Below, piece by piece: positions 5,540 to 10,916 of a DNA stretch of 13,964 nucleotides. The DNA is from Rhodobacterales bacterium UBA3089 (lineage in GTDB: Bacteria; Pseudomonadota; Alphaproteobacteria; Rhodobacterales; Rhodobacteraceae). The translations under genes and the position numbers were made by a program. Location: NCBI GenBank assembly GCA_002367255.1, contig DFBD01000026.1, forward strand, positions 18,722-32,685, given 5' to 3'. Every line of letters starts with the position of its first letter. Position 1 is the first letter of the stretch. The notes under the pieces are model-generated. The model saw nothing but the letters and a program-made list of their open reading frames with translations, had not been told where the DNA came from and made no database searches.

Positions 5540-7543
5540 TTACTCCGCCGCCATTGGTTTTTGGCTTGTCGCCATTTGACTTAACTCAGCCATCACGCTT
5601 GATGCGCGGGCAATCGGGTTGGTTTGGTAGAAGTTTGTGACCGCATTGGTAAAGGCACCGGAACCGAGTTGCTTCGGCGCAGCAGCTTTCCATTTGTTAA
5701 CCGGAACGTCGTCAATCGCAGCCAAATGCGGAAACTCTTTAAACATCGCCGCACGCAGTTCATTAAGCGAGCCATACGGCAATGCCTCCCCCAACTCCGC
5801 CGATAACGCCCGAAGGATTGCCCAGTTTTCACGCGCATCACCAGGCGCAAAACCCGCACGTTGCGCCATCTGTGGGCGACCCTCGGTGTTAACGAATATG
5901 CCGGATTCTTCGGTATAGGCTGCCGCTGGAAGGATCACATCAGCACGGTGCGCACCGCGATCCCCGTGCGAACCTTGATAAATCACGAACGGACCCGCAT
6001 CAATGTCCAGTTCGTCGGCACCAAGGTTATAAATGACTTCAGCTTTATCCAAAGCGTTAATCATGCCACCTTCGGTCGCAAAACCGATGTCCATACCACC
6101 GACACGCGTCGCGGCCGTGTGCAGAACCATGAATTTGGAATTCGTATTCTCGGTCAGTTTTTTCGCGGCTTCAAGAACCGCCTCGCCGTCCTTACCAGTC
6201 AACGCGCCCTGCCCGATGATAACGACGGTGTTCATATCCTTGGCTGGACCGATTTCTTTATCCGCCAACATCTGCAGTGCGGAACGATCATCGCCAACAT
6301 ATGCATATTCATACGTCAAATCAGCTTGCTCACCAACCAAACCAATCTGTGCGCCATTCAGCCACGCCTTGCGGATACGCGCGTTCAAAACAGGTGCTTC
6401 GGTACGCGGGTTCGTGCCAATCAACTGGATCATCTGGGCGTTATCAATGTCCTCGATCGTCGCCGTTCCAACGTAACCCGAGCGATCCCCAATCGGCAGA
6501 TACGCCCCGTCAACGCGACACTCGACATTGCCGTCGATCATGCCTTTCAGGGCATACATTGCCTCGGTCGAGGCTAGATCACCGGCAATTGCGGCAACCT
6601 TTTTGCCTTCGCTGGCCGTTTTGATCGCGGCAAAAGCTTCGGCCCAAGTCGCCGGCGTCAATTTGCCGTCAACACGCACATAGGGCTTGTCCAGACGTTG
6701 GCGGCGCAATCCGTCCCAGATGAAGCGGGTTTTGTCGGAAATCCATTCCTCGTTCACACCATCGTGGTTGCGTGGAACAATGCGCATAACTTCGCGGCCC
6801 TTGGTATCCACACGAATGTTGGAACCAAGCGCGTCCATCACGTCGATGGTTTCGGTCTTTTTCAACTCCCAAGGGCGGGCAGAAAACGCGTAAGGCTTAG
6901 ATGTCAACGCGCCAACCGGACACAAATCAATGATATTGCCCTGTAAATTGCTGTCGAGCGTCTGATTGAGGTAAGTTGCAATCTCGGCATCCTCACCACG
7001 CCCTGTCTGGCCCATCACGCTCAAACCAGCGACCTCGGTTGTGAAGCGCACGCAGCGGGTGCAGGAAATACAGCGCGTCATTGTTGTCGACACAAGCGGC
7101 CCTAGGTTCAGATCTTCTACCGAACGCTTCGCTTCGCGGCTCCGGCTGAAATCGACACCATAGGCCATAGCCTGATCTTGCAGGTCACACTCGCCACCCT
7201 GATCACATATCGGGCAATCGAGCGGGTGGTTTAGAAGCAAAAACTCCATAACCCCTTCGCGAGCCTTTTTAACCATCGGCGATTTTGTTTTAACAACAGG
7301 CGGTTGGCCCTCAGGGCCCGGACGCAAATCACGAACCTGCATGGCACAAGATGCGGCAGGTTTGGGTGGACCACCAACAACTTCGACCAGACACATGCGG
7401 CAGTTGCCGGCAATTGTCAGACGTTCGTGATAGCAGAAACGCGGGATTTCGATGCCCACTACTTCCGCTGCCTGAAGGATGGTCATAGAGCCATCGACCT
7501 CGACTTCTTGGTCGTCGATGATGATTTTTTTAAGGTCGCTCAT
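5540..7543 (-). CDS. nuoG: NADH-quinone oxidoreductase subunit G (Fe-S, 75 kDa type)
   Basis: Largest peripheral-arm subunit; it passes electrons from NuoF/NuoE through a chain of Fe-S clusters. The 667-residue protein has in order: a [2Fe-2S] ferredoxin domain with C37, C48, C51, C66; the His-Cys ligand set of cluster N5, H106, C110, C113, C119 ([14 protein letters not shown]); the [4Fe-4S] N4 ligands C158, C161, C164 and C208 (CISCTRC, then CPVGAL); and from about 220 a molybdopterin-oxidoreductase-like fold that in this family binds no molybdenum. I see no extra cysteine motif for cluster N7, as expected for the alphaproteobacterial/mitochondrial type. The ATG is 24 nt after a small Cys-containing ORF and has only a weak purine stretch (GAAGAG) upstream, so its translation may depend on the preceding gene. 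Confidence 0.98.
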
Positions 7544-7797: not shown

Positions 7798-9093
7798 TTA
7801 CTCCGCCGCAATCGAGCTTACGCGGCCCGTTTTCTGATATTTTATCCGGTCTTCGATTTCGTTACGGAAATGCCGGACCAACCCTTGAATTGGCCAAGCA
7901 GCCGCATCGCCAAGCGCACAGATCGTGTGGCCCTCAACCTGTTTCGTAACCGAAAGCAGCATATCAATTTCTTCCAGCTCTGCCTCGCCTGTAACTAGAC
8001 GGTCCATAACCCGCATCATCCAGCCTGTGCCTTCACGACACGGCGTACACTGACCGCAGCTTTCGTGTTTATAAAACTTCGCCAACCGCCAGATCGCTTT
8101 GATAACATCCGTTGACTGATCCATGACGATAACGGCCGCCGTTCCAAGACCAGACTGTTGTTCGCGCAGCCAGTCAAAATCCATGATGGCTTCTTTGGCA
8201 ATATCGGCAGGTAAAAGCGGAACCGAGGAACCACCGGGAATAACCGCCTTAAGGTTTTTCCAACCACCACGAACACCGCCGCAATGTTTGTCGAGCAGCT
8301 CTTCCAGCGGAATCGACATTGCCTCTTCAACAACACAAGGGTTGTTAACGTGGCCCGAGATACCGAAAAGTTTTGTGCCGTGGTTATTCGGACGCCCCAT
8401 GGAGGTAAACCAATCCGCGCCGCGACGAAGGATTGTCGGAACAACCGCGATGGATTCCACGTTGTTAACTGTCGTTGGCGCGCCATACAGGCCAGCACCA
8501 GCTGGGAACGGAGGTTTCATGCGCGGCATGCCTTTACGGCCCTCAAGGCTTTCTAAAAGCGCAGTTTCTTCGCCGCAGATATAAGCGCCGGCACCGTGGT
8601 GCAGATAAAGATCAAAGTCCCAACCGGACCTCGCCGCGTTTTTACCCAGCAGTCCAGCATCGTAACATTCGTCAATCGCCGCTTGCAATGCTTCACGTTC
8701 ACGAATGAACTCGCCACGTATATATATATAACCGGCATTCGCCCCCATGCCGAAACCGGCGATCAAGCAACCCTCGATCAACGTGTGCGGATCATGGCGC
8801 ATGATTTCGCGGTCCTTACAGGTGCCCGGCTCGGATTCATCGGCGTTTACCACCAAATACGACGGACGACCGTCGGATTCCTTGGGCATAAAAGACCACT
8901 TCAAACCGGTCGGGAAGCCCGCACCCCCACGGCCGCGAAGGCCGGATGCTTTAACCTGCTCGACAACCCAGTCACGACCGTTCTGGATATATCCAGCGGT
9001 TCCGTCCCAATGTCCACGCGCACGCGCCCCCGCAAGGCTGCGATCATGCATACCGTAAAGGTTCGTAAATATACGGTCCTTATCGTCGAGCAT
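7798..9093 (-). CDS. nuoF: NADH-quinone oxidoreductase subunit F (NADH- and FMN-binding)
   Basis: Electron entry subunit: it binds NADH and FMN and carries the [4Fe-4S] cluster N3. The 431-residue protein has the glycine-rich FMN/NADH segment [16 protein letters not shown] (51-66), [16 protein letters not shown] (83-98), the nucleotide-site stretch [19 protein letters not shown] (167-185) and cluster ligands C346, C349, C352 ([16 protein letters not shown]) and C392 (HTICALGD). I chose the ATG at 9093 ([19 protein letters not shown]). AAGGAG lies about 8 nt upstream and the family begins this way. The open frame up to 9138 would add 15 unrelated residues lying within the preceding gene. The preceding small membrane gene stops one base before this ATG. 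A (TA)6 run at 8719-8730 encodes part of GYIYIRGEF. Confidence 0.98.
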
Positions 9094-9094
9094 C

Positions 9095-9313
9095 CTACTC
9101 TCCTTCTTGGCGTTGCCGCCAAACCCTAAACAAAACAATCAACGCCCAAGCGAAAGCTGCCAAAGCGGCGAAGTCCGCCAGAAACGCAAATCGAACCGGC
9201 AATCCTATTTTTCCACCAAGAAATGTAATCGACATCCAGCCCAACATAGCCACAAGAATCACGATTGAAGCCAATCGCATTTGTGCTTTCTGTTGTTCCA
9301 TTTTATCGCTCAT
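9095..9313 (-). CDS. Small two-helix membrane protein (resembles DUF5337)
   Basis: A 72-residue protein with a charged, Gln-rich start ([13 protein letters not shown]), a hydrophobic segment at about 14-33, a short [10 protein letters not shown] turn, a second hydrophobic segment at about 42-64, and a basic end ([10 protein letters not shown]). Size, hairpin layout and position inside a nuo operon match what I remember of DUF5337, a family of unknown function in Rhodobacterales; this is from memory and unverified. It probably sits in the inner membrane. Its stop lies one base before the nuoF ATG and the nuoF Shine-Dalgarno is within its last codons, so the two are likely coupled. Its own ribosome site is weak (GGTAGAAAC before the ATG). 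M5 is an alternative start. It could help assembly or stability of complex I, but nothing in the sequence proves it. Confidence 0.8.
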
Positions 9314-9332: not shown

Positions 9333-9884
9333 TTAGTATACGTCGCCCTTATCTACTTTCTTCGAAAACACTGTATCGCCACCCGCGGCCAGCGTCTTTG
9401 CTTGGCCAACCCAGTCATCGCGACTGACACGGCCCTTAAATTTAACCAAATTTTCATCGGCCCATGCAACCTCACTCGCGCTCCAGGATGCGATTTGGTC
9501 ATAATGCCAAACGCCCTTTGCGTTAAGATCAGCCTCTAATTTTGGACCTACACCTTTGACTTTCTTTAGATCATCCCCGACACCACCGCGTGGCGCGGAC
9601 AGCAATTCTGGGGCACCATTTTCAGACGGCGTTGGCTCTACCACTGGCTCCGCTTCTGCAACTGGGGCAGGCTCAGACGGCGCAATAACCGATGGGCTAT
9701 CGTCAACATTCATGCCGCAAAACTTTGCAGCCAACCAATATCCGGCAGCGAGAAATACCAAGAAGGCAATGACGGCGACCCATATTGGTGCGATCAAACC
9801 AACGTAATAACTTAGAACCCCGACGATAATCGCCGCTATGATTAGGCCAACGACTTGGCAAGTATAGTTTTTCGCTTCTGTCAT
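9333..9884 (-). CDS. Two-helix membrane protein with C-terminal helix-hairpin-helix domain like the NuoE tail
   Basis: A 183-residue protein. Residues 1-9 are polar, two hydrophobic helices follow (about 10-31 and 33-53), then a Pro/Glu/Ala-rich linker (about 61-92) and a soluble domain (94-177). That domain has [12 protein letters not shown], a helix-hairpin-helix signature, then WHYDQIASWS and a long conserved stretch. It matches the C-terminus of the adjacent NuoE at about 66 of 84 positions by hand alignment, including 26 consecutive identical residues (138-163 here, 299-324 in NuoE). The domain resembles the H3TH group described as a predicted 5' nuclease-like domain (COG3743, from memory), but no catalytic residues are evident. 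The start has AGGGAGAGG 7 nt upstream and lies 15 nt after nuoE. The product is probably membrane-anchored with the domain in the cytoplasm; function unknown. Confidence 0.85.
   Translation of the reverse strand: MTEAKNYTCQVVGLIIAAIIVGVLSYYVGLIAPIWVAVIAFLVFLAAGYWLAAKFCGMNVDDSPSVIAPSEPAPVAEAEPVVEPTPSENGAPELLSAPRGGVGDDLKKVKGVGPKLEADLNAKGVWHYDQIASWSASEVAWADENLVKFKGRVSRDDWVGQAKTLAAGGDTVFSKKVDKGDVY
9354..9605 (-). repeat. Copy 1 of duplicated helix-hairpin-helix domain coding region
   Basis: Codes residues 94-177 of the accessory membrane protein. It pairs with 9903-10154. The protein is more conserved than the DNA, whose differences fall largely at third codon positions, so this looks like an old duplication kept by selection rather than a recent copy. 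Confidence 0.85.
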
Positions 9885-9899
9885 AAGAATGCCTCTCCC

Positions 9900-10916
9900 T
9901 TAGGCCTTTTCTGAAAATTCCGTAGTGCCGCCAGCCGCGAGTATTTTTGCCTGACCGACCCAGTCATCACGGCTAACGCGCCCTTTGAATTTCACGAGAT
10001 TTTCATCCGCCCATGCGACTTCTACATCACTCCATGCCGCGATTTGATCGAAGTGCCAAACACCTTTAGCATTCAGTTCCCCTTCGAGCTTTGGTCCTAC
10101 ACCTTTGATTTTCTTCAAATTATCGCCACCACCTGATCGCGGGCTGTCCAGCATCACAGGTTTTTGCCCTGCGCTTACAGCTTCTGGTTCAGGGGTTTTG
10201 GCAGGCTTTGCTTTCGCGGGCTTGGGTTTAACTAATATCGGCACTTCATCGCCCTGAATGCGTTTGACCGTATCGCCAAGTGCAATCGCGCGTGCCACAG
10301 ACCCATTCGCCGCCTCACCAGTTTTATCCTGCAAGCTGGTCAAACCACCCAGTGGCTCGGCTGCAAAGCGACCGTTCTGCGGCCCCGGTGTGGGAACTTC
10401 GCCATTTTCAAACGCCTTCAGGAGGTCACGAAACTTCTCAGCGGTAAGGTCTTCGTAATAATCCTTACCAATCTGTGCCATAGGGGCATTGGTGCAAGCG
10501 CCGAGACACTCGACCTCCTCCCAACTGAACTTGCCGTCAGCGCTGATTTCATGCGCGTTTGGTGCAATCACTTCCTTGCAAATACCAATCAGGTCTTCTG
10601 ACCCACAAAGCATACAGCTGGTAGTGCCGCAAATCTGGATATGTGCAACAGAACCAACGGGTTTGAGCTGAAACATAAAGTAAAACGTCGCCACTTCGAG
10701 GACACGGATGTACGCCATGCCCAACATATCTGCGATGCTTTCAATCGCGGGCTTGGACAGCCAACCTTCTTGCTCTTGTGCTCGCCATAACAGCGGGATC
10801 ACACCGCTGGCCTGGCGGCCTTCGGGAAATTTGGTCAACTGGGCTTCTGCCCAAGCCTGATTGGCGGGCGTAAACGCAAAGCTGTCAGGTTGTTCTGTGT
10901 GAAGGCGGCGTAACAT
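9900..10916 (-). CDS. nuoE: NADH-quinone oxidoreductase subunit E with C-terminal helix-hairpin-helix extension
   Basis: Thioredoxin-fold [2Fe-2S] subunit of the NADH module (24 kDa type, cluster N1a). The core is residues 1-173, with ligands C96, C101 (CGTTSC), C137 and C141 (CLGAC). The protein is 338 residues, well beyond the roughly 160-240 of a plain NuoE. Residues 174-254 form a flexible linker rich in Pro, Lys and Ala ([11 protein letters not shown] at 230-240), and 255-338 form a helix-hairpin-helix domain ([11 protein letters not shown]). I recall extended NuoE proteins in Rhodobacter and related genera, so the fusion is probably a lineage trait. The same domain ends the next gene. 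The start overlaps the nuoD stop by one base (TAATG), a typical coupling arrangement. Confidence 0.96.
9903..10154 (-). repeat. Copy 2 of duplicated helix-hairpin-helix domain coding region (nuoE 3' end)
   Basis: Codes residues 255-338 of NuoE, the extension beyond the thioredoxin-like Fe-S core. It aligns without gaps to copy 1 over 84 residues, about 66 identical by hand count. The two copies are in direct orientation about 300 nt apart, close enough for recombination or gene conversion. Confidence 0.85.

Follow-up and report, generated by a model that had tools for sequence, protein, structure and literature searches.

A homologue of the photosystem subunit protein-O, encoded in the nuo operon of Rhodobacterales, shares a helix-hairpin-helix domain with NuoE

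The stretch of DNA analysed here (the window; 13,964 nucleotides from Rhodobacterales bacterium UBA3089) carries a nuo operon on the minus strand, from nuoA to nuoL. Directly downstream of nuoE, the gene for subunit E of NADH-quinone oxidoreductase (complex I), lies a gene for a small membrane protein which, by sequence comparison, is homologous, and probably orthologous, to protein-O, which is part of the complex of reaction centre (RC) and light-harvesting complex 1 (LH1) in Dinoroseobacter shibae. The explanation we favour, with a probability of roughly 0.55, is that this protein combines a membrane hairpin with a helix-hairpin-helix (HhH) docking domain, and would occupy its RC-LH1 site where such a complex is present and serve an RC-independent task otherwise. 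Many genomes without RC genes have the gene, and in most of these the encoded cysteine pair persists, which points to recruitment by the photosystem of a protein that the respiratory operon already encoded. Protein-O was described as part of a photosystem, with no function assigned, and non-phototrophs now offer a place in which to seek its other job.

Results and Discussion

Identification of the protein-O homologue

Compared with the chains of solved structures, the window protein strongly matched chain O of entry 8YY9 and chain a of entry 9WQV (Table 1), both from RC entries, 9WQV also containing an RC M chain; no other solved chain matched at E < 0.05. The C-terminal domain accounts for 123.8 of the 127.4 bits of the match to 8YY9 chain O; the hairpin by itself matches weakly (8.0 bits). 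The protein had no Pfam match at E 0.01, and no NCBIfam model scored above its cut-off. According to the consulted sections of the structural paper (PMC12079452), 8YY9 is the RC-LH1 complex of D. shibae, in which protein-O (239 aa) is one subunit; its hairpin, residues 8-59, is placed between RC and LH1 and features a Cys10-Cys59 disulfide (section 2.3), its C-terminal domain is flexible, unseen in the structure and similar to the C-terminus of NuoE, its gene lies between nuoE and nuoF, and its function is described as unknown. The domain shared by NuoE and protein-O is thus already in print for D. shibae. For the window protein, the disulfide and the membrane orientation are putative.

A first-pass annotation, made from the letters of the window alone, had described an HhH domain common to the NuoE tail and its neighbour, placed in both behind a flexible linker, with two helices anchoring the neighbour in the membrane. 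This description holds. The final 84 residues of NuoE are identical to residues 94-177 of the protein-O homologue at exactly 66 positions, 26 of them in one unbroken run, and the local alignment score is 384, whereas 500 shuffles reached 56 at most. The AlphaFold2 model contains the two hairpin helices, a linker of low predicted local confidence (pLDDT) and an HhH-like fold (Table 1).

Table 1. Features of the window. Gene names other than nuoE, the protein-O homologue and DUF5337 were assigned by eye from open reading frames (ORFs).
Feature	Position	Strand	Remarks
nuoE, NADH-quinone oxidoreductase subunit E, 338 aa	9900..10916	-	PF01257, E 6.5e-51; NF009040, 534.2 bits
[2Fe-2S] thioredoxin-like domain of NuoE			residues 25-169
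Lys/Pro-rich linker of NuoE	10155..10241	-	residues about 226-254
C-terminal HhH tail of NuoE	9903..10154	-	residues 255-338; resembles tails of NCBIfam L21, S2 and PhaH
26-residue identical block, NuoE copy	9945..10022	-	residues 299-324
Protein-O homologue, 183 aa	9333..9884	-	8yy9_O, E 6.2e-36; 9wqv_a, E 7.1e-32
Two-helix membrane hairpin of protein-O homologue	9720..9875	-	residues 4-55; AlphaFold2 helices 4-28 and 33-55
Cys9 of protein-O homologue	9858..9860	-	aligns with disulfide Cys10 of D. shibae protein-O
Cys56 of protein-O homologue	9717..9719	-	aligns with second disulfide cysteine of D. shibae protein-O (Cys59)
Pro/Glu-rich linker of protein-O homologue	9603..9716	-	residues 57-94; pLDDT 47-69 in blocks 61-90
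HhH domain of protein-O homologue	9351..9602	-	residues 95-178
26-residue identical block, protein-O copy	9396..9473	-	residues 138-163
DUF5337 small protein, 72 aa, between protein-O homologue and nuoF	9095..9313	-	PF17272, E 1.7e-27
nuoF, downstream	7798..9093	-	ORF; name by eye; start by eye at internal ATG

Distribution of protein-O and reaction centres

The occurrence of the gene was followed in 149 genomes drawn evenly from the order, 148 of which had a completeness of 90% or more and a contamination of 5% or less. Genomes with a match to PF00124 (63/149) were scored as RC-positive, and nuoE was present in all 149. The 148 nuo loci fetched, together with the window as the locus of its own genome, were scanned with an iterated HhH-domain profile, and omission of one genome with a split locus (G017) left 148 for locus counts. 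The UBA3089 genome itself gave no match to PF00124 or to bchN, absences to be read in the light of its completeness of 72%.

A protein-O gene was located at nuo in 59 of the 63 RC-positive genomes and absent from 4; among the 85 RC-negative genomes it was present in 46 and absent from 39 (Fisher p = 5e-8). With one genome per genus the corresponding counts are 25, 4, 22 and 21 (p = 0.0025). This association was not significant when evaluated on a tree of NuoE and NuoF, where 13 supported pairs divided into 3.2 in the same direction, 1.1 in the opposite direction and 8.7 ties. Parsimony, on a midpoint-rooted tree whose root is an assumption, reconstructs the gene as ancestral, then lost 15 times and regained 4 times. 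RC matches were also found in 19 of 37 named genomes, a biased sample reached via the loci, and carriers of protein-O without RC matches include Celeribacter ethanolicus, Pseudooceanicola pacificus and Paracoccus denitrificans. Given so many carriers without RC genes, protein-O probably has an RC-independent job as well. The occurrence of protein-O homologues both with and without RC genes appears to be a new point, which was not encountered in the consulted literature, including the consulted sections of the D. shibae paper. In most genomes without protein-O, the gap between nuoE and nuoF is short, with room enough for DUF5337.

Two hydrophobic segments are encoded by all 105 protein-O genes, and cysteines at both ends of the hairpin are found in 35/46 RC-negative versus 33/59 RC-positive genomes. 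A relaxed hairpin in RC-negative genomes was considered and not seen (one-sided permutation p = 0.78 for RC-positive hairpins being more alike), and RC-positive genera resemble one another slightly more in the C-terminal domain (p = 0.03). These data bear on the idea that protein-O is a plain assembly filler of RC-LH1, comparable to protein-U, and that RC-negative genomes hold leftover copies after loss of photosynthesis. Its site in RC-LH1 is similar to that of protein-U and a comparable role has been suggested by the authors in the sections consulted (PMC12079452); the raw RC association fits, as does the greater likeness of hairpins of the same RC class relative to mixed pairs (p = 0.007, with genus labels shuffled, a procedure that is not phylogeny-proof). 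However, RC-negative genes keep both segments (46/46) and mostly the cysteine pair, their hairpins are about as alike as RC-positive ones, and the gene occurs in Paracoccus species without RC matches, which makes a mere filler with relics an unlikely account.

One of the RC-positive genomes without a nuo-linked gene (G134) encodes a protein of 205 aa in which two hydrophobic segments (by eye) accompany an HhH domain (locus L292, 8564-9181, minus strand). Its gene lies 35 bases after dxs, downstream of bchY, bchZ, pufL, pufM and pufX, all on one strand (bchY, bchZ and dxs identified by eye; pufL and pufM by PF00124, M being further confirmed; pufX by PF11511). It was retrieved by searching the 43 genomes without a nuo-linked gene and G017, with matches read from part of them, and among those read it is the one close match in build outside nuo. 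When the 63 RC-positive genomes were searched with the G134 protein, no other copy near PF00124 places appeared among the matches listed. PufX (PF11511) is present in all four RC-positive genomes without a nuo-linked gene, and above cut-off in 30/63 RC-positive genomes.

Relationship between the NuoE tail and protein-O

The 26-residue block falls in a better-conserved stretch of the family: across genomes, NuoE tails and protein-O domains have a mean identity of 64.6% over the 25 columns of the block and 55.6% elsewhere, and with 26 residues the run ranks second in length across the 96 genomes having both tail and gene. Identical residues use the same codon at 26 of 68 positions (ungapped 90-column tail alignment), where codon usage predicts 28.2. 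As codon agreement does not exceed expectation, the underlying duplication or exchange is old and the likeness resides at the protein level only; purifying selection likely keeps the identical residues. A recent gene copy or gene conversion is ruled out by the randomised synonymous sites.

The two domains of the UBA3089 genome are sisters (local support 0.966) in a midpoint-rooted FastTree tree built from 246 domains. Copies from the same genome are 63.0% identical, compared to 59.6% for random pairs (maximum 60.8% in 300 shuffles; kinship uncontrolled), and in 8 of 96 genomes, one with support of 0.08, both copies lie within a clade that contains no other genus. NuoE tails were sorted roughly by sequence pattern into long ones, found in 47 genomes with and 24 without protein-O, and short ones, found in 49 with and 14 without; these counts give no sign that tail type is linked to protein-O. 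Another idea was that a basic linker in NuoE pairs electrostatically with an acidic one in protein-O. The window fits this pattern (net charge of +3 for the 45 residues preceding the NuoE HhH domain, and -6 for protein-O), but the combination is present in just 27/96 genomes, and the idea was rejected; the charges of the two linkers correlate positively (Spearman 0.32).

Relation to complex I

The same annotation had proposed that the two domains pair, or share a partner, and so hold the NADH module of complex I to the membrane. The adjacency of the genes, the common domain, the slight excess of identity between copies of one genome and the genus-only clades in eight genomes speak for such a tether. 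Its corollary, that tail and gene should occur together, was not borne out: 96 genomes have both, 38 the tail only, 9 the gene only and 5 neither (Fisher p = 0.55, n = 148), so that the gene is missing at the locus in 38/134 genomes with the tail and present in 9/14 without it, and independent pairs on the tree reveal no link. Nor are the linker charges complementary. The homologue of P. denitrificans (L054) is not a chain of the solved complex I of this species, and among solved chains, with E up to 1, it matched 8yy9_O and 9wqv_a alone and no complex I chain. The 2.3 Å structure comprises 14 core subunits, NDUFS4, S6, A12 and PIMT (PMC11522691, sections consulted), and a mass spectrometry study of purified P. 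denitrificans complex I names no such protein in the section seen, which mentions further unnamed proteins (PMC8115037). NuoE of this species has no tail, so these findings do not bear on pairing of the tails, and a tail-dependent association may exist elsewhere; the consulted literature yielded no report of co-purification with complex I in a species having both tail and protein-O. As far as the Paracoccus and co-occurrence data go, protein-O is not a stable complex I subunit, and we regard the tether as possible yet improbable.

The HhH domain in other proteins

NuoE of the window exceeds the cut-off of the long-NuoE family NF009040 (514 bits; Table 1). The protein-O homologue stays below the Pfam cut-offs of HHH_5 (13.1 of 27 bits) and HHH (12.6 of 24 bits), and HHH_5 was matched at E 0.01 by 15 of 35 homologues. 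Its top fold match is the AR2 domain of NusA (6IB8 chain C, 22% identity), a weak one with a Foldseek E of 0.55, followed by further weak matches to DNA polymerases and RAD51.

The HhH domains might instead bind DNA or RNA and help to keep translation or the nucleoid near the membrane complexes. Similar tails in the models of the ribosomal proteins L21 and S2 and in an apparent L20, the weak matches to DNA polymerases and RAD51, and the GVGPK hairpin motif, which is typical of DNA-binding HhH domains, are in line with this. The domains, however, have a net charge close to zero or weakly negative (means of -0.8 in NuoE and -0.3 in protein-O; 0 and +1 in the window), and the best fold match is to a domain that docks onto proteins, which leaves nucleic-acid binding a doubtful explanation.

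Several other carriers of the domain were observed. The apparent L20 (by eye) with the same tail is encoded on an epsilonproteobacterial contig (L043, about 6001-6309), and a third copy in the UBA3089 genome, at a contig start (G000:C28:17-268; L005) and followed by rpmA (L27, by eye), is most likely the end of L21. Proteins with one transmembrane (TM) call ending in an HhH domain occur on contigs binned as Campylobacterota metagenome-assembled genomes (L024, L025, L029, L031, L038). In a separate, unlinked family (L293-L296, L298, L299, L304, L305), a conserved start with a single TM helix (by eye) is followed by a spacer and by an HhH domain that in most cases ends like that of protein-O. 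Between the protein-O gene and nuoF, a third HhH ORF with no TM call and a phasin-like N-terminus (by eye) was detected in L019, L020, L088, L102, L113 and L297 (1989-2588), and at the nuo loci of G013, G016, G044, G050, G083, G125 and G126; all seven carriers in the 148-genome set are RC-positive, and G017, outside the set and with no RC match, has it too. In Rhizobiales (L050, L056, L065, L066, L069 and others), nuoE with a tail and nuoF are followed by an HhH protein (frames of 218-328 aa in the named loci) that by eye begins like a phasin and for the most part has no TM call; these loci thus hold a parallel HhH pair within a nuo operon.

Proposed function

Homology, distribution, cysteine conservation and gene position are the established observations on which the favoured explanation builds, together with the published RC-LH1 site in D. 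shibae. The disulfide-closed N-terminal hairpin would sit in the membrane, from which a flexible linker would hold the HhH domain out into the cytoplasm. This domain, which also ends NuoE and apparently L21 in this genome, and S2 and PhaH in NCBIfam models, is most likely a reusable docking tag binding one or more shared cytoplasmic partners, in the manner of the dual-HhH AR2 domain of NusA, which docks alternately on two proteins. The hairpin would lodge between RC and LH1 wherever a photosystem exists; without one, the protein would be retained for a task that involves no RC, and its link to the nuo operon would be one of gene position and not that of a stable complex I subunit. We infer a shared partner from the shared domain, and with one tag common to NuoE, protein-O and ribosomal proteins such a partner becomes directly searchable.

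More remote is a bridge in phototrophs, with the hairpin in RC-LH1 and the HhH domain holding the NuoE tail in a respiratory-photosynthetic assembly. The location of the hairpin in RC-LH1 and the position of the gene in the nuo operon speak for it, and the docking of AR2, a dual HhH, with alphaCTD, itself an HhH fold, offers a precedent; on the other hand, the NuoE tail is absent from 4/63 RC-positive genomes, three of which have the gene, the gene occurs in 46 genomes without RC genes, and the consulted sections of the D. shibae paper report no complex I with RC-LH1 (PMC12079452). Equally far-fetched at present is a dual-complex adaptor older than the photosystem, whose hairpin would plug into whichever quinone-handling complex is available while its HhH tag pairs with that of NuoE, joining light- and NADH-driven quinone traffic in a switchable supercomplex.

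Comparison with known systems

The protein of the window is closest to protein-O of D. shibae (8YY9, 8YZ2, 9JPB), with which it shares the two-helix hairpin, the aligned cysteines, the linker, the C-terminal HhH domain and the gene position between nuoE and nuoF. It differs in length (183 versus 239 aa) and in genomic context, the 72% complete genome of the window giving no RC gene match. Homology to chain a of 9WQV extends over residues 65-168 of the window protein, and this chain was deposited as 'NADH:ubiquinone oxidoreductase 41 kd complex i subunit' although the entry has a reaction centre. Protein-U of the Rba. sphaeroides RC-LH1 is likewise a two-helix hairpin at a similar site, but the primary sequences are quite distinct in the comparison made in the consulted sections of PMC12079452. 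With the long NuoE of NF009040 (PRK12373), NuoE of the window has the core and the HhH tail in common, the model being 400 aa and the window protein 338 aa long. The tails of L21 (NF008915, NF008916), S2 (NF008966) and the phasin PhaH (NF045508) are similar to those of both window proteins (E 1e-15 or better, except 2.9e-15 for NuoE with S2), but their carriers are ribosomal or granule proteins and the window scores are far under the cut-offs of those models. The AR2 domain of NusA may have the HhH fold in common with these tails; common descent beyond that fold would be conjecture.
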